Assembly: GCA_012103315.1 (NCBI GenBank) | Contig: WLWZ01000008.1 | Location: 124,001 to 188,000, forward strand | DNA length: 64,000 bases | From: Alphaproteobacteria bacterium | GTDB lineage: Bacteria > Pseudomonadota > Alphaproteobacteria > MPNO01 > UBA2964 | Direction: 5' to 3' | In this document: in pieces, positions 3,126-36,554 of the stretch | Layout: every line of letters starts with the position of its first letter | How positions within the stretch are numbered: position 1 is the first letter of the stretch | Made by a program: the position numbers and the translations under genes | Notes under the pieces: model-generated | The model's database searches: none | What the model was told of the DNA's origin: nothing | Seen by the model: only the letters and a program-made list of their open reading frames with translations

Positions 3126-4988
3126 TCACCGAAGCGTCACTGATTGATGCTCTTGTAACCATAACTCTAACATCATCAAGACCCACACCAACTCTCCATG
3201 ATAAGAGGCATGTCCCGTCCTAGAGGCCTGGATCACTTCATCGATGAACTCTACCCGATATATTCCTCTATCCTTGAGAGAAAATAGGGCAGCGTGAGCC
3301 ACCTCTTGTAGCGGTCCATGTTCGCGAAGCCAATAGCCAAACGGGAGGCCAAACCCATGCTTGGATTTCGTCAATGTGGATTTTGGCAAGAAGTCCTTAA
3401 AGGCATCTTTAAAAAACGTGCGCAATTGTATACCGCGCATCATTTGCTTCGCAGGAATTTGAGCAGCGACTTTAACAACGTGGGGATCCAGGAGCGGAAA
3501 TCCAACGGCCACACCTGCGGTTTCACACATGCGGCCTACCTTTCGCAGGTCATCATCCGCCAGTATCACCTGTAAATCGACATGCATCATCCGATGCAAC
3601 AATGACTCAGATGACGTTCGGTCATACGCCTCTCGTAAAAGGTCAATGGGACCGTCAATATCTACGCGGGCCGCAAAATCGTCGTCAAACATCTCGGATG
3701 CTGAACGACCCGAATAATAATTGGCAGCTTCCATTCTTTCCGGCATCGCCATATTTGCCTGCTCAACATAGCTTCTTCCTTTGCGAAACAATGTAATTGA
3801 ATCGCGGAAGGGGGCGTGTTCCAGCCCTGGTTCGATCATCCCGTTCCTAATCCAACGGGGAATTCGCGTGTACAAATCTAGAATTTTTTGACGCCCGTAT
3901 CGGCTGTTACCGGCAAAGAGCTCATCCCCACCATCACCGGCAAGAAGCAGTTCAACGCCATGTTCGCGCGCTAGCTTCGCGCAATAATAGGAAGGAACGA
4001 CAGATGTATTCGCAAATGGTTCATCATATGTCTTGGGTAACATCGATATGAGGTCGACGACATCATCTGCCGTTACATAATATTCGTGACAATTAGCGCC
4101 GAAGTGGGCCGCAGCCATACGTGCGAAAGACATTTCGTCGTATCCATCGACATCGAAGCCCATGGTAAAGCATGAAGCGGGGCCATCCACACAAGCTGCA
4201 AGGGAACCAAGAATTGTCGAGCTATCAACTCCCCCACTCAGAAAGGCGCCAACCCGATCTTCAGCAACGGCGCCCCGCGACCGATTGGTCGCCGCACTGA
4301 CAGCTTCCCGCAGCTCTCGGGATACAGCCGTAGCATCTATTCTCGTCGCGTCGGTGTACGGCATATTCCAGTACCGGCCAACTTCTGTCGCACCGTGACT
4401 AAAATGAAGGTACTGCGCTGGTAACAATTTGTAGCAATTTTGATAGATCGTTTCAGGAGCAGGTATCCGCGTAAAATACATTAAGTCGTAAACTGCCTGG
4501 GCGTTGACCTTAGTATCCACACCCGGATAAACACCCAAGCAATCAGTCATCGTCGCAAAAACCAGTGATCCGTCCTCAGGCTCCGTAAAACACATCGCGC
4601 GAGACGCCATTCGATCAATGGCAATTAATGCTTCTGCCTGATTAGAATCTATGAGGGCGAATGAAATATTATCAACGACATCTATAAGATTGCGGCCTAA
4701 ATCTTGCCACGCTTTGGCAAGCGCCAGAGCTGTTCCCGTATCACTCGCTATAGACTGGTATTTTGGATCAAGCCAGATTGGCAGGCCCGTTGCGACAACG
4801 GACAGTCCACCATCTTCCATCGCGTCACATTCAATTGATGCACCGGCGATCGCTAAAGCGCTACATGACTTGGTCTGAATAAATTCAGCATCGACGTCTC
4901 GGCGTGCGCAACGTAACGCAGCCTTCATATTCGCAATGACATTTCGCGCCGAATCGGAACTTCCGATGCCGCCGACCCACCCGCACAA
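3126..4988 (-). CDS. Asparagine-synthetase-like amidotransferase with divergent glutaminase half
   Basis: The C-terminal half is a clear asparagine synthase domain: an SGGVDSS PP-loop for ATP, then YDEPFANTS and GDGGDELFAGNSRYG. The N-terminal half has the shape of a class II glutamine amidotransferase but lacks the usual RGPD and NGEIYN substrate-binding motifs. The start matters: class II enzymes need Cys directly after the initiator Met. The TTG at 4988 gives exactly Met-Cys-Gly-Trp and is chosen here; a TTG three codons upstream (4997) would bury the Cys. Length is about 620 aa, as in exosortase-associated amidotransferases. The position among exopolysaccharide genes suggests amidation of a sugar acid or another polymer-linked carboxylate rather than free asparagine synthesis. 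Whether the glutaminase works is uncertain. Confidence 0.78.
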   Translation of the reverse strand: MCGWVGGIGSSDSARNVIANMKAALRCARRDVDAEFIQTKSCSALAIAGASIECDAMEDGGLSVVATGLPIWLDPKYQSIASDTGTALALAKAWQDLGRNLIDVVDNISFALIDSNQAEALIAIDRMASRAMCFTEPEDGSLVFATMTDCLGVYPGVDTKVNAQAVYDLMYFTRIPAPETIYQNCYKLLPAQYLHFSHGATEVGRYWNMPYTDATRIDATAVSRELREAVSAATNRSRGAVAEDRVGAFLSGGVDSSTILGSLAACVDGPASCFTMGFDVDGYDEMSFARMAAAHFGANCHEYYVTADDVVDLISMLPKTYDEPFANTSVVPSYYCAKLAREHGVELLLAGDGGDELFAGNSRYGRQKILDLYTRIPRWIRNGMIEPGLEHAPFRDSITLFRKGRSYVEQANMAMPERMEAANYYSGRSASEMFDDDFAARVDIDGPIDLLREAYDRTSSESLLHRMMHVDLQVILADDDLRKVGRMCETAGVAVGFPLLDPHVVKVAAQIPAKQMMRGIQLRTFFKDAFKDFLPKSTLTKSKHGFGLPFGYWLREHGPLQEVAHAALFSLKDRGIYRVEFIDEVIQASRTGHASYHGELVWVLMMLELWLQEHQSVTLR

Positions 4989-5098
4989 TCCAGACAATTT
5001 ATTGAAATTCCATAATTTTTTGTGATCCGGCGTTAAAGTTTATAAATTTACACCGACTAATATGTCAATCTTTGGCGGATGGAGATCGCGTTATACTT

Positions 5099-6298
5099 CT
5101 AGCCTTTTACCGAATTTTTCAAACTCCGGAGCGCGTCTTCAACCCAGTACTTGAACCGATTACGGCGAACGCTAATCCAAGCTAAATTATGGCGATTTGT
5201 ACTTAAACTGCGTTTGTGTTGACCCTCGCCAGCCATGAAATCATAGATCGCATTCTGCCGCGTCAGACCTCGTTCGATAGCCAGAAAGTGGGACACCAAC
5301 CCCGGCTTAAGAGCCCTATCTTCATCATAAGAAAACCCGCTCTGATAGCTATAAATTCGTTTGCGATGACAAATATTATAAAGATAACCAATAGAAGCAT
5401 CACCCGCCGTTACCGAGATCATTTCAATTTCGCCCACGCCGAACCGCTTCTGAATGAATTCTCGATGGAAAGATTCAAAAACCGGATTGGCAAACGCGCC
5501 GGCTTCACCTCGGCCATTCCAATAAGTCTGATGTAGCTCTTTTAGCCTATCGAGAAATTTAAGGGCTTCGTTTTCAGAAGATGCAACCTTAACCTCAACA
5601 GGGCCAATCTTTTCATAAGACCGGAGAGCACGCCTTACCTGCTGTCGGGTATTCCGGCTTAAATGATCGAGATAAGGTTTACCGGAATTCCGCACGAAAT
5701 TCAGATCAACATGATCACACGGTTTAAAATCCCAAAGATGTTGCGATGTACCAGTCAACTCGACTGTAGACAGGTCATTTTCGGGCAACCCACTTAGAAA
5801 AAACTCATCCCATTCCAGCAAACGCGATCCTAAAAACTCTAGGGCATAAGTTAGAATGCCGGCGGCATAATCAGGCTCAACCAAGATGCCATTATATTCG
5901 ACCGTAAGCGTATCAAGGCCCTTATTGCCAGTCTCATGCAAGTACAGCCCACGTGATTTCAACCAGCCATATCGAATTTGATCATGTCTGTTGACAACCG
6001 CGAGCCCAACAACCCGCTCCTCCGCCCGTGCGACGAGCAAAAGCGGTGCAACATCAGCAGGCAAGTTTTGAAGCCATGTTCCAACCCAGCCCCAACTCAA
6101 GAAAAGGGAAGGCTTCGCGGATTCTTCAAGTTTGGTCCATTGAGCCGCTAGGGCATTAAGGTCCGAAATTGGCTCTAGCGAGAACTGGCATATCGGCATA
6201 GCAATGTGTTCACGATCACTTTCTAGTCGCGTCAAGGTCAATACCTTTGCAGGATGCAGCACCGTTTTGTCAGCACGATAATCATTTGGCAAAGCCAT
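5099..6298 (-). CDS. CelD/BcsL-type GNAT acyltransferase (FemAB-like fold)
   Basis: This 399-aa protein has the double-GNAT layout of the CelD/Acetyltransf_6 family: an N-terminal half with SLFLSWGWVGTWLQ, then LSRNTRQQVRRALRSYE and the C-terminal acyl-CoA-binding half (GDASIGYLYN, then YSYQSGFSYDED and YDFMAGEGQHKRSLST). Such proteins are common in exopolysaccharide loci and are thought to acylate sugars or lipid-linked intermediates in the cytoplasm; the donor and acceptor cannot be read from sequence. It is divergent from a second member of the same broad family at 6455. The first 33 residues are atypical, and Met34 is a possible alternative start, but it has no better ribosome binding site. 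Confidence 0.75.
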   Translation of the reverse strand: MALPNDYRADKTVLHPAKVLTLTRLESDREHIAMPICQFSLEPISDLNALAAQWTKLEESAKPSLFLSWGWVGTWLQNLPADVAPLLLVARAEERVVGLAVVNRHDQIRYGWLKSRGLYLHETGNKGLDTLTVEYNGILVEPDYAAGILTYALEFLGSRLLEWDEFFLSGLPENDLSTVELTGTSQHLWDFKPCDHVDLNFVRNSGKPYLDHLSRNTRQQVRRALRSYEKIGPVEVKVASSENEALKFLDRLKELHQTYWNGRGEAGAFANPVFESFHREFIQKRFGVGEIEMISVTAGDASIGYLYNICHRKRIYSYQSGFSYDEDRALKPGLVSHFLAIERGLTRQNAIYDFMAGEGQHKRSLSTNRHNLAWISVRRNRFKYWVEDALRSLKNSVKG

Positions 6299-8430: not shown

Positions 8431-9531
8431 ATGACGTTAGTGCACCTGATTGCTGCTGCAAGACCTAACTTTATGAAAGTGGCGCCACTTTATCACGAGC
8501 TTAACAGGTTGGATTGGTGCGAACCGGTAATTGTTCATACTGGGCAGCATTATGATGCCAATATGTCCGATAATTTCTTTGATGATCTGCAACTACCGTC
8601 ACCAGACATCCATCTTGGCATTGGCAGCGGCAGTCATGCCGAGCAGACTGCCGGTGTCATGACTGCTTATGAAAAAATTATTGTCGAGCAAAAACCCGAT
8701 TGGATAATTGTTGTTGGTGACGTTAACCCAACAATGGCGGTCACATTATGTGCAAAAAAACTTCTGGTTTCAGTCGCACACCTTGAAGCGGGACTGCGTT
8801 CAGGCGATAGGTCGATGCCGGAAGAATTAAACCGCCTCGTGACCGACTCAATAGCTGACGTCCTATGGACTCCATCCCCTGACGCCGATGAAAATCTCAT
8901 AAAAGAAGGAGTTGCTGTCAGCAAAATTAGTAATGTTGGCAATATCATGATTGATTCATACGAGCTACTGAGGGAGAAAATCCAAGCTGAAAGTGTTCCC
9001 GCAAAATATGATTTGCAGAGCGGTAAGTATGGCGTCGTAACTCTGCACCGTCCTAGCAATGTTGATAACCGGGATACGTTGACACTCCTCGCAGATTATC
9101 TCCGTGAGGTATCTCGAGAAATTCCTTTAGTATTTTCACTTCACCCCCGAACCAGAAAGAACTTAGAAACTTATGATTTGTTTGAACGCCTTGATGGAGC
9201 GCCCGGCATGCAAATCACGGATCCTCTTAGCTATATCCAGTTTATGGGCCTCGTTCGGGAGTCGAAGTTCTTAATTACGGACTCAGGCGGTGTCCAGGAA
9301 GAAACCAGCTACCTGGGGATCCCATGTGTAACACTGAGAGACACGACAGAACGACCTATCACCATATCGCTGGGCACGAACAAATTAGCCGCGCCTGACC
9401 AATTGATGGATTGCATATCAGATATCTCTCAAGGGAAATGGTCTAAGGGGCAGCGTCCACCACTTTGGGACGGCCATACAGCTCAACGGGTCGCAGAAGA
9501 TCTATACCGACGAACAACGAACGTGGCATAG
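8431..9531 (+). CDS. wecB: UDP-N-acetylglucosamine 2-epimerase (non-hydrolysing)
   Basis: It interconverts UDP-GlcNAc and UDP-ManNAc in the cytoplasm, supplying ManNAc-type sugars for polymer synthesis. The 366 aa match the family length. Conserved pieces include AARPNFMKVAPL near the N-terminus, HTGQHYD, VVGDVNPTMA, HLEAGLRSGD, PEELNR, TLHRPSNVDN, FSLHPRT and the UDP-binding ITDSGGVQEE followed by TLRDTTERP. The GDVNPTMA stretch replaces the more common GDTnSt form, a variant also found in other family members. It lies on the plus strand after the lectin-like gene and converges on the O-ligase gene. Confidence 0.93.
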   Translation: MTLVHLIAAARPNFMKVAPLYHELNRLDWCEPVIVHTGQHYDANMSDNFFDDLQLPSPDIHLGIGSGSHAEQTAGVMTAYEKIIVEQKPDWIIVVGDVNPTMAVTLCAKKLLVSVAHLEAGLRSGDRSMPEELNRLVTDSIADVLWTPSPDADENLIKEGVAVSKISNVGNIMIDSYELLREKIQAESVPAKYDLQSGKYGVVTLHRPSNVDNRDTLTLLADYLREVSREIPLVFSLHPRTRKNLETYDLFERLDGAPGMQITDPLSYIQFMGLVRESKFLITDSGGVQEETSYLGIPCVTLRDTTERPITISLGTNKLAAPDQLMDCISDISQGKWSKGQRPPLWDGHTAQRVAEDLYRRTTNVA

Positions 9532-9671
9532 CTTATCATCATGCTTACTGACTGCTTGGCGCCAGTCCGCTGGGTAATACTCATATCCTTAAGTCGGTAC
9601 GCTACCACGCCATCTCGACCTAAAAACCCAAGCGCAGGAAATTCATTTTCTAAACAGTAACAACCTGCATA

Positions 9672-11009
9672 CTACTTTTTGGCGTCGGCACGCAAAAACG
9701 ATTTCTTTGCCTGCGGTACGACAAAATCGTCTTCCTTTACCCCTTCAACAGGCGCCTCCACTAAGTCCTTTTTCAGTATTTCCTGCACAATCAGGCGGAG
9801 AATGATTGATAGGGCCGCGATGTGCCAGAATAGGTCATAATAGGCAAGGTTGAGAAATGCCCCGCCGGTGGCGTACCCAACAATACTGACCTGTATCATA
9901 GCGGCAAGGTCTCGTGCCCAAACCAAGTCTTCACGCACTCGAACGTTCCGGATCACCCATGAACATGAGAGAAATGCCACCAGAATACAGGACAAAAACA
10001 AAAGCAACCCGACGAAGCCGTGCATCGCCATTACCTGAAAGTAAATGCTATGGGCATTAACATGACGGTCTGGATTGGGCGCATATTTTCTGTACTGACT
10101 CACGTCATCATAAATCATGAAACCACCACCAAAAAAGGGATGATCAAGGGTAAATTTATAGGCGAAGGACCATGAATTGAGGCGCCCTATCGCCGAAGCA
10201 TCTTCCTCATACTCGCTAATGGTATCCATACGTTCGAACCAGGCGTCCGGCATAAAATTCAGCCCCGCCGTCGCGACAACAATGATGACAATAGCCGGCA
10301 ACACCTTGTTCTTGGATTTCAACCAAAGGAAGAGCGCCATCATACTCATAGCAATCAGAGCCCCACGTGAGTAAGAACTCAACGCCGAAATGATCATGAG
10401 AGGCATAGACACAAATAAACCGCGTTTAACCCATTTATGCATAGTATGCATGTGGAGATAACGCACCAACGGAACGACCATGATGGTCGCAACCGCTAAT
10501 GCGTTGTTCTCCTCAATTACAGATCCCGGTGGCCCAAACACTAGGAAATTCCCACCGGTCGCGAGGGAGAATGCCCCTCCCTTGACCGCAAAGAAGGCAA
10601 TGGAACCCGCTATCACCCAAATGAGCCAGTCCAGTTTCTTTTGTTCCTGTAGCATGACAACGGAAAGCAACGTTATGACCATCATTTTTATGACTTGTTG
10701 CAATTCTTTGAATGAGCCCGCGACGTCCGTCGCAAACACCGTAGAAATAGACATCCAAAGGGCAAAGGCCAGCATCAGAACCGTTCCGGGAGTCATCGGC
10801 AGTTTTTTGGGCTCTTTGGAAACAAGCCAAGCCCCAATGGTCAATACGCCGACAACCATCGCGAATGGAAACGAAAACGCGAACCCGTAAGAAAGACGGT
10901 GTGGGTTCATATAGGAGATCCAGGAATAAACATAGAGACCGATATACGGTCGCGTGCAAATGAAAGGCAAAGTTCCAAAGATCATCAGCGTGACGATTAA
11001 ACTTCGCAT
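9672..11009 (-). CDS. Exosortase-A-type O-glycosylation ligase / O-antigen ligase family membrane protein
   Basis: This 445-aa polytopic protein has about ten or more membrane segments and belongs to the Wzy/WaaL superfamily. The N-terminal RPYIGLYVYSWISYMNPHRLS is the hallmark of the subgroup found with exosortase A in exopolysaccharide loci. A large periplasmic loop with FFGGGFMIYDD and NPDRHVNAHSIYFQ carries the conserved H-x2-H/S-type catalytic region of the ligases. The C-terminal 35 residues are cytoplasmic and charged. It would polymerise or transfer the undecaprenyl-linked glycan at the periplasmic face. It heads a minus-strand gene order followed by the glycosyltransferase at 11056. 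Confidence 0.85.
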   Translation of the reverse strand: MRSLIVTLMIFGTLPFICTRPYIGLYVYSWISYMNPHRLSYGFAFSFPFAMVVGVLTIGAWLVSKEPKKLPMTPGTVLMLAFALWMSISTVFATDVAGSFKELQQVIKMMVITLLSVVMLQEQKKLDWLIWVIAGSIAFFAVKGGAFSLATGGNFLVFGPPGSVIEENNALAVATIMVVPLVRYLHMHTMHKWVKRGLFVSMPLMIISALSSYSRGALIAMSMMALFLWLKSKNKVLPAIVIIVVATAGLNFMPDAWFERMDTISEYEEDASAIGRLNSWSFAYKFTLDHPFFGGGFMIYDDVSQYRKYAPNPDRHVNAHSIYFQVMAMHGFVGLLLFLSCILVAFLSCSWVIRNVRVREDLVWARDLAAMIQVSIVGYATGGAFLNLAYYDLFWHIAALSIILRLIVQEILKKDLVEAPVEGVKEDDFVVPQAKKSFLRADAKK

Positions 11010-30689: not shown

Positions 30690-30879
30690 GGAAACCCACC
30701 CTAAAAGTGTTTCACGATGTTGGTCGTTTCTACTTTATCAAGCACCATAAACGCCGGACAGAGAAATGCCAGCGCGTCTCAACCATTCGGATTCCGTTGC
30801 TCAATTAAAAGTGACTCGGCGTGATTTCCGCATGTTCCACACCAGTCGTACGCTTGTCGCTCGAAAGAGTTGCGGGAAA

Positions 30880-31569
30880 ATGGCTGGCACAAATCGAATA
30901 CTCCTTGTTGAAGACGATCCTGAGATGCAACGTTCTCTATTGGATCAGCTCGCGCTACACGAGGAATTCGATACGGTTGCTGCTAATGACGGTACCAGTG
31001 CGTTAGAAATCGTCGGCACCGAACATTTCGATATGATCCTGCTCGATGTTGGTCTCCCGGATATGGATGGTCGTGATACCTGTCGGCTTATCCGTCGCAA
31101 AGGCATCCATACACCTGTCATTATGTTGACCGGTATGGATAGCGACGCCGACATTATTCTCGGACTCGACGCGGGCGCTAATGACTATGTAATCAAACCA
31201 TTCAAGATGGGAATATTGCTCGCGAGAGTTAGAGCCCATCTAAGGCAACACGAGGCCAGCGAAGACGCTGCCTTTAATCTAGGGCCATTCAGCTTCAGGC
31301 CCAGTATCCGCACCCTGACACATCGTGACACTAAGCAAGAAATTCTTCTCAGCGATAAGGAATGTGCCATTTTGCGATACCTGTATCGTGCAGGCGATAA
31401 GATCGTTGGTTGCGACACCCTATATAGCGAGGTGTGGAATCATGCGGCACCGCTAGCGACGCATACGCTGCAAACCCATATTTATAGACTTCGGCAAAAA
31501 ATCGAGCCCGACCCCGCCAACCCGATAATTTTGATTTCTGAATCAGGCGGATACCGGGTCAAACGCTAA
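30880..31569 (+). CDS. OmpR-family response regulator (orphan)
   Basis: A 229-aa two-domain regulator. The receiver has VEDD, the phospho-acceptor Asp56 (in DMILLDVGLPDMDG), MLTGMD and YVIKPF. The C-terminal winged helix shows LSDKECAILRYLYRAG, the recognition THTLQTHIYRLRQKIE and the wing SESGGYRVKR. It binds DNA when phosphorylated. No histidine kinase is next to it, so the partner is elsewhere. The start at ATG 30880 (GGGAA upstream) places the domain start normally; an upstream ATG at 30766 adds 38 residues of no known role. Confidence 0.85.
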   Translation: MAGTNRILLVEDDPEMQRSLLDQLALHEEFDTVAANDGTSALEIVGTEHFDMILLDVGLPDMDGRDTCRLIRRKGIHTPVIMLTGMDSDADIILGLDAGANDYVIKPFKMGILLARVRAHLRQHEASEDAAFNLGPFSFRPSIRTLTHRDTKQEILLSDKECAILRYLYRAGDKIVGCDTLYSEVWNHAAPLATHTLQTHIYRLRQKIEPDPANPIILISESGGYRVKR

Positions 31570-31726
31570 AATCCTTTGCAAAACTCATGGCGTTGTCACG
31601 AAGAATTGAGGTGGAATTACTGGCGAAGAACGCCGACCGGCGAGTAGCCTAGTCCTGTAGAAACTTAACTAAAGGCGCCTAGCTGACGCGGGCATACGAA
31701 AAATAAATCAACGGAGGGTATCCAAG

Positions 31727-32773
31727 ATGAAACCGATGAAGTCCCGTTTACTTGCAACGACGGTAATACCGCTCGCCATGGCTGCGGGGTTTACCCTCGT
31801 CACTGTAGTAGAAGCGCCAACGGCCGTTGCTGGCCATCATCAGAAAGGCTGCAATCCTTGCGCTGCAAAGCGTGGTTGCAATCCATGTGCTGCAAAGCGC
31901 GGTTGCAATCCATGCGCCGCCAAACGCGGATGTAATCCATGCGCGGCTAAGCGCGGTTGCAATCCCTGTGCTGCAAAGCGTGGCTGTAATCCTTGTGCCG
32001 CTCGGGGCTGTAATCCCTGCGGTGCAAATCCATGCAACCCATGTGCGGGTGGCGCTGCTTCTTACAGCAGCAAGTGCGTTGTTCCACGTCTTGCCAACGC
32101 CAATCCTTGTGCTGCTAAACGCGGTTGTAACCCCTGCGCCGCAAAGCGTGGCTGCAATCCCTGCGCCGCAAAGCGTGGCTGCAATCCTTGTGCTGCAAAA
32201 CGCGGTTGCAACCCCTGCGCCGCAAAGCGTGGCTGCAATCCTTGTGGTCCCTGTGGCGCAGCTCCTTCGGTCAAGTTGACTAAAGGTGAAACCATCGCGG
32301 TCTACAAATGTCTGCAAGGCGAAATGAAAGCCGCCTACTCCAAGTCAGGCAATCTTTGGGCGAAGTGGTATGCACACTGGAAGAAGTTCTCTAACCAGCC
32401 CTACGTCTCCGCTACCCATGGCGGGCGCCTTGTCCACAACTATGCCAGTAAGAAGGCAAGTGGGCAGTATGCCAAGTTCGAGAAAGTCGGAAAAATGACT
32501 CGCGGCGGCGTTCTTGCCAAAGACAGCTTTACAGTCACGCCGCAGGGCAAGGTCAGTGTCGGCCCACTGTTCCTCATGGAAAAGATGAAGAGTGGCTTTA
32601 ACAAGGCGAGCAGCGATTGGCGCTATACGCTGATCATGCCAAATGGCCAAACTGTTGGCACAACCAATGGCAAGGGATCAAAGAACGTCAAGTTCTGCAT
32701 CGATTGCCATGCCGCTGTTGCTGACAATCAGTATGCCATGTTCTTCCTGCCAGCAAAGTTCCGGGCGAAATAA
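31727..32773 (+). CDS. Secreted CNPC-repeat protein with C-terminal cytochrome P460-like domain
   Basis: A 348-aa exported protein. Residues 1-36 are a signal peptide (…APTAVAG). Residues 41-177 hold two blocks of a nonapeptide repeat GCNPCAAKR (nine exact copies) giving 13 CNPC motifs in all, separated by a spacer at about 110-125 with SSKCVVPR. The rest (about 185-348) matches the cytochrome P460 layout: HGGRLVHNYA, WRYTLIMPNG and a haem c motif C324-I-D-C-H328 near the end, followed by DNQYAMFF. P460 haems are c-type with an extra cross-link; the reaction here is unknown. The repeats lack the histidine of haem motifs and so more likely bind metal or form disulfides. GGAGGG gives a strong ribosome binding site. 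Confidence 0.82.
   Translation: MKPMKSRLLATTVIPLAMAAGFTLVTVVEAPTAVAGHHQKGCNPCAAKRGCNPCAAKRGCNPCAAKRGCNPCAAKRGCNPCAAKRGCNPCAARGCNPCGANPCNPCAGGAASYSSKCVVPRLANANPCAAKRGCNPCAAKRGCNPCAAKRGCNPCAAKRGCNPCAAKRGCNPCGPCGAAPSVKLTKGETIAVYKCLQGEMKAAYSKSGNLWAKWYAHWKKFSNQPYVSATHGGRLVHNYASKKASGQYAKFEKVGKMTRGGVLAKDSFTVTPQGKVSVGPLFLMEKMKSGFNKASSDWRYTLIMPNGQTVGTTNGKGSKNVKFCIDCHAAVADNQYAMFFLPAKFRAK
31847..32257 (+). repeat. 27-bp tandem coding repeats (GCNPCAAKR)
   Basis: Two blocks (31847-32053 and 32102-32257) of in-frame 27-bp units code for the nonapeptide. Copies differ at silent third positions (for example AAA/AAG, TGT/TGC), so the peptide is kept while the DNA drifts: selection acts on the protein, and the array is not a fresh slippage product. 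Confidence 0.9.
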
Positions 32774-32792
32774 ATTTTACCCGCGCAAACGA

Positions 32793-32824
32793 AAAGGGCC
32801 GGTCTTCTGACCGGCCCTTTTTTT
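32793..32824 (+). terminator. Strong Rho-independent terminator, probably bidirectional
   Basis: A perfect 12-bp stem (AAAGGGCCGGTC / GACCGGCCCTTT) with a TTCT loop is followed by further Ts (32818-32824). It lies about 20 bp after the P460 gene stop. The A-run on the left side makes it work for the converging receptor gene on the minus strand as well. Confidence 0.93.
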
Positions 32825-35594: not shown

Positions 35595-36554
35595 TCAGCT
35601 TTGGCTACAGGCACCCCCGCCGAGAACACAAAACTTTGCGCAATGCGGATGATTGAGAGGTATATCGTCAGATGACTCGGCAAGCGTAGTACCTAGTTCA
35701 AACTGGTCATCGTAAGGCAACAAAGTGCAGGCGATCACGGCCGGTTTTTCAGCACCCTTGCGCTTTACAACCATTCGCGAAGTTGCGCACATCATCGTGC
35801 CAGGATCGACATCGAGAATCGACCAGCACTGATCTGTAATCTCGGGCACGTCCTGTTTCTCATCCATCTCTGGAAACAACACCAGCCGCGACGAATCATC
35901 CGCATCCATTGAAATGTCATGCTCGGCAAACAGCTCAGCATAACCTTCCCGCATCGCCATCTCTTCTTCACCCCATGGCGTTCGGCCAGCAATGTCGAAA
36001 TTAAATTTGTTTTGCGACAACCAGATCAACCCATCGAGCATCGGCTGCCAGCTACCCGGTCCACGTTCTTCTTCATGACGTTGTTGCGTGTAATGGTCAA
36101 CGGAGACACGAACCACCAGCTTATCGTTAAACCAGTATTTTAGTTTCTTCAGCGCCGCTTCGTGATGCCGCATTGGCTTCATGGCGTTTGTCAGCACCAG
36201 AGCCCGAAAACCGCGCAACAAAGCCACCTCCAACATCTGGATCATGTCGAGGTTCATGAAGGGTTCACCACCGGTAAAACCGATTTCTTCGGTCTCTAGG
36301 CTCTCGTCCCGTATCTCATCGAGATACGAACGCACTTCATCTATTGTAATGTAGGATAGCCGGTCATTTCGCGGGCTGGATTCGATGTAGCAATTTGCGC
36401 AGGTCAGATTGCACAACGTACCGGTATTGATCCATAACGTTTTGAGTCCGTCTAGCGATACTTGGGCACGCGTTTCCCCCGCCGCTGTGACGTCCGGATC
36501 CTGAAACTTTTTTGGATCGAGTGACTTGCTCTCGGGCTGGCTTACGCCGTCCAT
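35595..36554 (-). CDS. Radical SAM protein with SPASM-like C-terminal cysteines
   Basis: A 319-aa radical SAM enzyme: the 4Fe-4S/SAM motif is C48-x3-C52-x2-C55 (TLCNLTCANCY), and GGEP lies at 95-98. The C-terminal part carries more Cys (MMCATS, VIACTLLPYD, then HCAKFCVLGGGACSQS), laid out like the SPASM/twitch domains that bind an extra iron-sulfur cluster. SPASM enzymes often modify peptides or small metabolites; no precursor peptide was found. It follows the VOC gene by 13 bp and the rhodanese gene precedes that, so the three form an operon. Confidence 0.85.
   Translation of the reverse strand: MDGVSQPESKSLDPKKFQDPDVTAAGETRAQVSLDGLKTLWINTGTLCNLTCANCYIESSPRNDRLSYITIDEVRSYLDEIRDESLETEEIGFTGGEPFMNLDMIQMLEVALLRGFRALVLTNAMKPMRHHEAALKKLKYWFNDKLVVRVSVDHYTQQRHEEERGPGSWQPMLDGLIWLSQNKFNFDIAGRTPWGEEEMAMREGYAELFAEHDISMDADDSSRLVLFPEMDEKQDVPEITDQCWSILDVDPGTMMCATSRMVVKRKGAEKPAVIACTLLPYDDQFELGTTLAESSDDIPLNHPHCAKFCVLGGGACSQS

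Follow-up and report, generated by a model that had tools for sequence, protein, structure and literature searches.

Results

The array-P460 gene and its immediate flanks

The DNA analysed here, referred to below as the window, is a stretch of 64,000 nucleotides (window positions 1–64,000) corresponding to positions 124,001–188,000 of the forward strand of contig WLWZ01000008.1 in assembly GCA_012103315.1. An open reading frame at 31727..32773 on the forward strand encodes a protein of 348 aa from an ATG start codon, in exact agreement with the original prediction as to coordinates, strand and length, and homologues of this gene, termed here the array-P460 gene, were found. A ribosome-binding site, GGAGGG, can be read 8 nt 5' of the ATG (31713..31718, +), and downstream lies an intrinsic terminator with a 14-bp stem, a 4-nt loop and a T tract (32791..32822, +), by far the strongest stem in a terminator scan whose background rate is high. 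Residues 1–36 (31727..31834, +) form a signal-peptide-like segment with a basic start, a hydrophobic core and an AVAG end, and judged from this N-terminus the protein would be exported; attachment of haem c requires export. None of the NCBIfam models matched the protein, and an antisense open reading frame of 189 aa (31748–32317) was dismissed as a mechanical mirror of the repeats described below.

Just 5' of the array-P460 gene and on the same strand lies a gene for an OmpR-type response regulator (30766..31569, +; Pfam Response_reg and Trans_reg_C), which is also found next to array-P460 in the close relatives L005–L008 and, from this adjacency, is the probable regulator of the gene. Further along the window is a radical SAM gene (35595–36554, −) with sub-threshold likeness to the Rv1681-family and ArsS models; two close relatives, L006 and L008, also have it in the vicinity of array-P460, beside genes for a VOC/glyoxalase protein and a peptidase of the M20 type.

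The Cys array

The 13 CNPC motifs that had been predicted to lie in two blocks are present, with starts at residues 42, 51, 60, 69, 78, 87, 95 and 103 in block 1 (residues 41–106, 8 CNPC; 31847..32044, +) and at residues 134, 143, 152, 161 and 170 in block 2 (residues 126–177; 32102..32257, +), where the last CNPC is followed by a CGPC at residue 173. The regular spacing of nine residues, also part of that prediction, holds for most positions but shortens to eight residues towards the close of block 1. The corresponding 27-bp periodicity was detected by TRF. The whole protein contains 32 Cys, with CxxCH solely at residues 324–328, and the array (residues 41–181) has 29 Cys in 141 residues together with 23 Lys/Arg and no Asp or Glu, making it strongly basic and giving it the high Cys density and low complexity of metallothionein-type sequences. 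Nine GCNPCAAKR units gave 168 pairwise nucleotide differences, all in third codon positions, so that the copies do vary silently as had been proposed; the nine were picked for their identical peptide, and the informative part is therefore the amount of silent difference only. Because the differences between units are all silent, we regard the array peptide as being under purifying selection.

In AlphaFold2 models, which rest on shallow alignments of 20–21 sequences, residues 1–110 and 130–178 were predicted to be disordered, whereas the segment between the two blocks (residues 111–129, including SSKCVVPRL; 32057..32113, +) was modelled confidently as a strand and a helix (pLDDT about 86/71). 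This segment carries the conserved motif C-[VI]-[VI]-P-[RS]-[LVI], with one Cys, which occurs mid-array in nearly all relatives of the protein, related forms being present in L009–L011. According to the models the segment probably docks on the haem domain, which would leave block 1 as a tail and make a loop of block 2.

The haem domain

The P460-like haem domain claimed for the C-terminal part of the protein, an assignment that was to stand or fall by a profile search, was recovered by that search: PF16694 matched residues 215–336 with a modest score that slightly exceeds the curated cut-off (E 2.4e-6; 28.4 bits, against 27), and all 20 of the 20 members of the family alignment matched the same model. 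A PDB sequence search with the P460 domain alone returned chance matches only, a profile being needed. AlphaFold2 modelled residues 185 (approximately) to 348 with confidence as one domain, for which the best Foldseek matches all belonged to the P460/c'-beta family, and VIA-align gave Z scores of 11.8 against the T. thermophilus cytochrome c'-beta (7ead; 126/135 residues aligned, 2.9 Å) and 11.5 against the M. capsulatus P460 (9hrk). We therefore assign residues 185–346 (32279..32764, +) to the cytochrome P460/c'-beta superfamily.

The haem-c motif, C-I-D-C-H, is located at residues 324–328 (32696..32710, +), and its Cys and His residues are invariant in the alignment (A2). A 2025 review of the superfamily (PMC11928373) defines true P460s by a haem–lysine cross-link, which c'-beta proteins do not have. 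Lys265 of the window protein (32519..32521, +) aligns with Met79 of NeCP-beta (7s5o) and, by way of L031, a canonical P460 of the same genome, with the cross-linking lysine of N. europaea P460 (Lys70, in the VKE of 2je2); the position is nearly invariant in alignment A2. Because Lys265 aligns with the cross-linking lysine, the protein is P460-like at this position, and these alignments suggest that its haem is probably cross-linked to Lys265. For the distal carboxylate (Glu96/Asp102), which has been linked to NH2OH oxidation, the alignments tentatively place Phe282 or Gly290 at the equivalent position, in a gap-adjacent region with an invariant Glu285 nearby.

Variation of the array among alphaproteobacterial relatives

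A scan of genome contigs for array-P460 genes identified 22 loci, all from Alphaproteobacteria/Rhodospirillales metagenome-assembled genomes (MAGs), three of which (L011, L015 and L023) are truncated by contig ends. The Cys array precedes the haem domain in every locus but L026. Comparison of copy number among relatives, a check proposed with the original prediction, showed that the array is kept in about 20 and that the number of CNPC motifs ranges from 6 to 55: relatives with 85–95% identical haem domains have 6, 12, 13, 14 or 18, and L009 has 55. The spacers vary as well, and so do the repeats themselves (CNPCNPCAAKK, CGPCGACNPC), all of which are CGAC-like in L115 and, as far as the array can be read, in L023. 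L112 and L113 have arrays of single NPCAAK repeats without CxxC, and strict CxxC pairing is for this reason not essential. Met and His are absent from the alphaproteobacterial arrays. Neither the P460 domain nor the SUMF1-like partner described below had a relative in the plasmid collection that we searched.

Genes associated with the array

In 10 of the 22 loci, the gene immediately 5' of array-P460 is divergent from it and encodes a protein with a PF03781 (FGE/SUMF1-type) domain and an N-terminus resembling a signal peptide; a c-type cytochrome gene is close by in 13. The window genome carries the SUMF1-like ortholog (61% identical) on another contig (C23), where it adjoins DUF6969, cytochrome c and apt, which elsewhere are the neighbours of array-P460. 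Orthologs, separated from paralogs by a clear gap, were present in 19 of 21 array-P460 genomes and absent from that of the array-less L026. In an order-level sample of 27 genomes, eight had the SUMF1-like gene, eight had array-P460 and seven had both. A class-level sample of 386 alphaproteobacterial genomes, each at least 85% complete, contained 29 with the SUMF1-like gene and 34 with array-P460 (both, 23; SUMF1-like only, 6; array-P460 only, 11; neither, 346), a co-occurrence with a Fisher p of about 2e-23, calculated with kinship ignored and from a set in which many genomes are MAGs. Five of the six genomes with the SUMF1-like gene only have a Cys-array open reading frame adjacent to it, the exception being G083, so that 28 of the 29 SUMF1-like genomes also have a Cys-array gene; conversely, the SUMF1-like gene is missing from 11 of the 34 array-P460 genomes. 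The two genes are divergent and at most 0.9 kb apart in 15 of the 23 genomes with both.

DUF6969 was found in 32 of the 34 array-P460 genomes and in 27 of the 29 SUMF1-like genomes, as against 93 of all 386, and it lies on one strand with the SUMF1-like gene, at most 2.4 kb away, in 25 of the 27 genomes with both. The DUF6969 protein (PF22308; L035:8453–9211) is His-rich with no evident signal peptide, and its gene is also common where no array is nearby. An array-specific role for DUF6969 was considered and rejected, as an array was nearby in only 3 of 20 sampled DUF6969 loci from genomes with no strong array-P460 match.

The SUMF1-like partner has both the PF03781 domain and a modelled SUMF1 fold that matches FGE, PvdO and ToxD, in an AlphaFold2 model of moderate quality (pLDDT 75, low in the Cys loop). 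An invariant GCGxC is present in the C-terminal loop of the 21 alphaproteobacterial members (C256-G-x-C259). A tie between the C256/C259 pair and the arrays was rejected, as genomes with a partner lacking C256 also carry NPC arrays, and the idea that the partner requires a CxP motif was unsupported, Pro-less CGAC arrays co-occurring with it in L023 and L115.

Arrays outside the Alphaproteobacteria and their gene neighbourhoods

In a sample of the phylum, seven genomes from outside the Alphaproteobacteria had the SUMF1-like gene, and all seven encode NPC-array proteins. Here the array is joined to a cytochrome c domain of the SoxA/TsdA type (PF21342, assigned by scanning four proteins, the others being alike by sequence), some arrays also standing alone; the fused loci are L165, L166, L167, L169, L170, L171 and L172. 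In L181 and L182, DUF6969 is directly 3' of the array-cytochrome gene. The non-alphaproteobacterial arrays have either Met/His-rich spacers (NPCNPCAMKHKM) or NPCAAK/NPCAEK repeats. The search for arrays has low sensitivity where these have diverged: it missed those of the alphaproteobacterial genomes G375 and G279, which can be seen in the sequence. The array is thus a module, which occurs alone or on SoxA/TsdA-type cytochrome c as well as in the P460 setting to which the original prediction had confined it. It has thus become attached to two haem-c domains that are unrelated to each other, and has kept its partner genes in both settings; since these partners accompany arrays on different haem domains, the array rather than the P460 domain is likely to be the centre of the system.

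Neighbours of the non-alphaproteobacterial arrays include an arsenite methyltransferase (ArsM) with ArsS (L185), ArsS (L184) and ACR3 (L181); a multihaem cytochrome is also among the neighbours of SoxA/TsdA-type arrays. The window genome itself contains a stand-alone, exported-looking CNPCAAK array of 94 aa with no haem domain (L003:1489–1773 and L036:4533–8900, contig C2), which has the gene for a MerA/lipoamide-dehydrogenase-like oxidoreductase on one side and that for a sensor histidine kinase on the other, the set being preceded by a VTT protein. The MerA-like oxidoreductase and the kinase flank the stand-alone array in L075, L087 and L088 as they do in the window genome. These arsenic/mercury-type neighbours flank stand-alone or SoxA-type arrays, not array-P460 genes, and on the whole gene context leans towards soft-metal(loid)/thiol chemistry with no specific metal.

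A sulfur transporter gene of the YeeE type (Sulf_transp) lies near the array genes in L122 (4725–6419) and, assigned by sequence likeness, in L009 (1001–2738) and L010 (1422–3235). It is accompanied by a DUF302 protein in L122 and by an exported-looking protein with no Pfam match in L009.

Discussion

The observed architecture, fold, conservation, copy-number change and genomic linkage of the array-P460 protein can be accommodated in a reading that we tentatively prefer, while placing it somewhat short of an even chance: the array would be a disordered poly-thiol module, used to bind soft metal(loid)s or to carry out thiol redox chemistry beside a haem and serviced by the SUMF1-like and DUF6969 proteins. 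The protein would be an exported haem-c member of the P460 superfamily with an intrinsically disordered, easily amplified module, its haem held at C324/C327/H328 and probably cross-linked to Lys265. Residues 111–129 would fold onto or beside the haem domain, leaving block 1 as a free tail and block 2 as a loop tethered near the haem. The thiols of the array may bind soft metal(loid)s in the class of Cu(I) or As(III), or may react by redox chemistry, and electrons could travel by way of the haem to a soluble cytochrome c, the product of the c-type cytochrome gene found alongside in many relatives; the SUMF1/FGE-fold protein and DUF6969 might mature, chaperone or load the array. Several findings weigh against this reading: the arsenic/mercury-type genes lie beside stand-alone or SoxA-type arrays rather than array-P460, the alphaproteobacterial arrays have neither Met nor His and in L112 and L113 no CxxC either, and 11 of the 34 array-P460 genomes are without the SUMF1-like gene. 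As the array recurs on an unrelated haem protein with the same partners, we suspect a redox or metal-handling system that has yet to be described. We put forward more doubtfully the wider proposal of a periplasmic system of the Pseudomonadota, in which a poly-Cys module carried on a P460 or SoxA/TsdA haem-c domain, or alone, is modified or metal-loaded by the SUMF1-fold protein with DUF6969 and acts as a haem-coupled poly-thiol cofactor.

The array is probably what the SUMF1-like protein acts on, and the question of how it does so bears on an alternative that we consider rather unlikely, namely that the array is a peptide substrate, many Cys of which are oxidized in the periplasm by the SUMF1/FGE-like enzyme to formylglycine or another product that the haem domain uses or regenerates. 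FGE oxidizes the peptidyl Cys of CXPXR motifs through a Cu(I) bis-thiolate (PMC12123546), most arrays contain CxP (CNPC, CGPC, CSPC), and the head-to-head genes with their near-perfect co-occurrence, the invariant GCGxC of the 21 alphaproteobacterial partners and the fold matches to FGE, PvdO and ToxD are all in keeping with such chemistry. However, the Cys pair of the partner is spaced C-x2-C, as against C336/C341 for the Cu(I) pair of human FGE (from structure entry titles); three non-alphaproteobacterial members, seen in full sequence, are down to one Cys (GGVC) though arrays are present in their genomes; the window array lacks the Arg at +4 of CXPXR, and the CGAC arrays found alongside the partner in L023 and L115 lack its Pro. 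These four observations make FGE chemistry less sure than action on the array as such, and full CNPC arrays also occur without the partner (family f40). The independent fusion of arrays to SoxA/TsdA-type cytochrome c domains, together with the Sulf_transp gene near the array in L122 and, by likeness, in L009 and L010, would instead suit a multi-site sulfur carrier, in effect a multiplied SoxY arm bearing persulfide or thiosulfonate that the haem domain oxidizes. We think this unlikely, as the alphaproteobacterial fusions carry P460 rather than Sox domains and have no sox genes beside them, and linkage to the sulfur transporter is sparse.

Regular, low-complexity Cys repeats whose copy number is free to vary might also be expected of a disulfide-cross-linked structural matrix or anchor for the haem domain, comparable with the CGP-repeat proteins of sperm tails, and one array member weakly matches the Pfam MSSP model (E 9e-4). 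Such a role appears very improbable to us: the array is predicted to be disordered, single-NPC arrays have no CxxC pairing, and the conserved partner genes are left unexplained. The Drosophila male-specific sperm proteins share regular C-x-P repeats with the array (Cys-Gly-Pro in their case) but lack a haem domain, and the likeness is almost certainly one of convergent low complexity. Slippage alone, giving a functionless but tolerated expansion, could account for the 6, 12, 13 and 18 copies found among relatives with about 95% identical haem domains; it does not account for 168 pairwise nucleotide differences that are all silent, for the same motif on different domains in distant lineages or for the dedicated partner genes. 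The purely silent differences and the recurrence of the array go most of the way to refuting such an expansion, and we regard it as barely credible.

The preferred reading, that of a metal(loid)-binding or redox-active poly-thiol module beside a haem, can be set against several known systems. Like metallothioneins and other Cys-rich metal buffers, the array has a high Cys density, low complexity, predicted disorder and a variable number of repeats; unlike them, it is apparently exported, fused to a haem-c domain and built of nonapeptide repeats, and its metal binding is a proposal. The partner shares PF03781 and the fold of the FGE/SUMF1 superfamily, for which the array is a thiol-rich candidate substrate, but differs from FGE in its signal-peptide-like N-terminus, in having CGxC rather than C-x4-C, in the lack of any sulfatase partner seen and in the incomplete CXPXR of the arrays. 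SoxA/TsdA-type cytochrome c proteins of other Pseudomonadota carry the same NPC array on a domain that differs from the P460 haem domain and that the window protein does not possess.

Searches of the open-access literature for the array motif, for DUF6969 and for P460 with CXXC or SUMF1 returned nothing relevant. Relative to that literature the array, the mid-array segment, the two haem-domain partners and the SUMF1-like/DUF6969 association are new, the haem superfamily itself being known. If the preferred reading is correct, two haem-c domains of separate origin have each acquired a poly-thiol module, a candidate client is at hand for an orphan branch of the FGE/SUMF1 superfamily, DUF6969 (present in 93 of the 386 alphaproteobacterial genomes sampled) gains its first functional context, and a metal(loid), NO or sulfur process is indicated in uncultured Alphaproteobacteria.

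The window protein shares its fold, the CxxCH near the C-terminus and the Lys at the cross-link position with members of the P460/c'-beta superfamily from N. europaea, M. capsulatus and Nitrosomonas sp. AL212; it differs in its array, a search of the 2025 review (PMC11928373) by terms having revealed no mention of a fusion or Cys-rich extension. Besides array-P460, the window genome contains four more genes of the P460 family (L030/L031, L032 and L002). Two are canonical P460s in tandem (L030/L031, C2:396678–397723), another is the third to match PF16694 strongly, and the remaining one encodes a domain related to that of array-P460 but has no array. In L021, three P460-family genes occur within 7 kb (3433–4113, 4302–5498 and 9285–10088), and only the middle one carries the Cys array.
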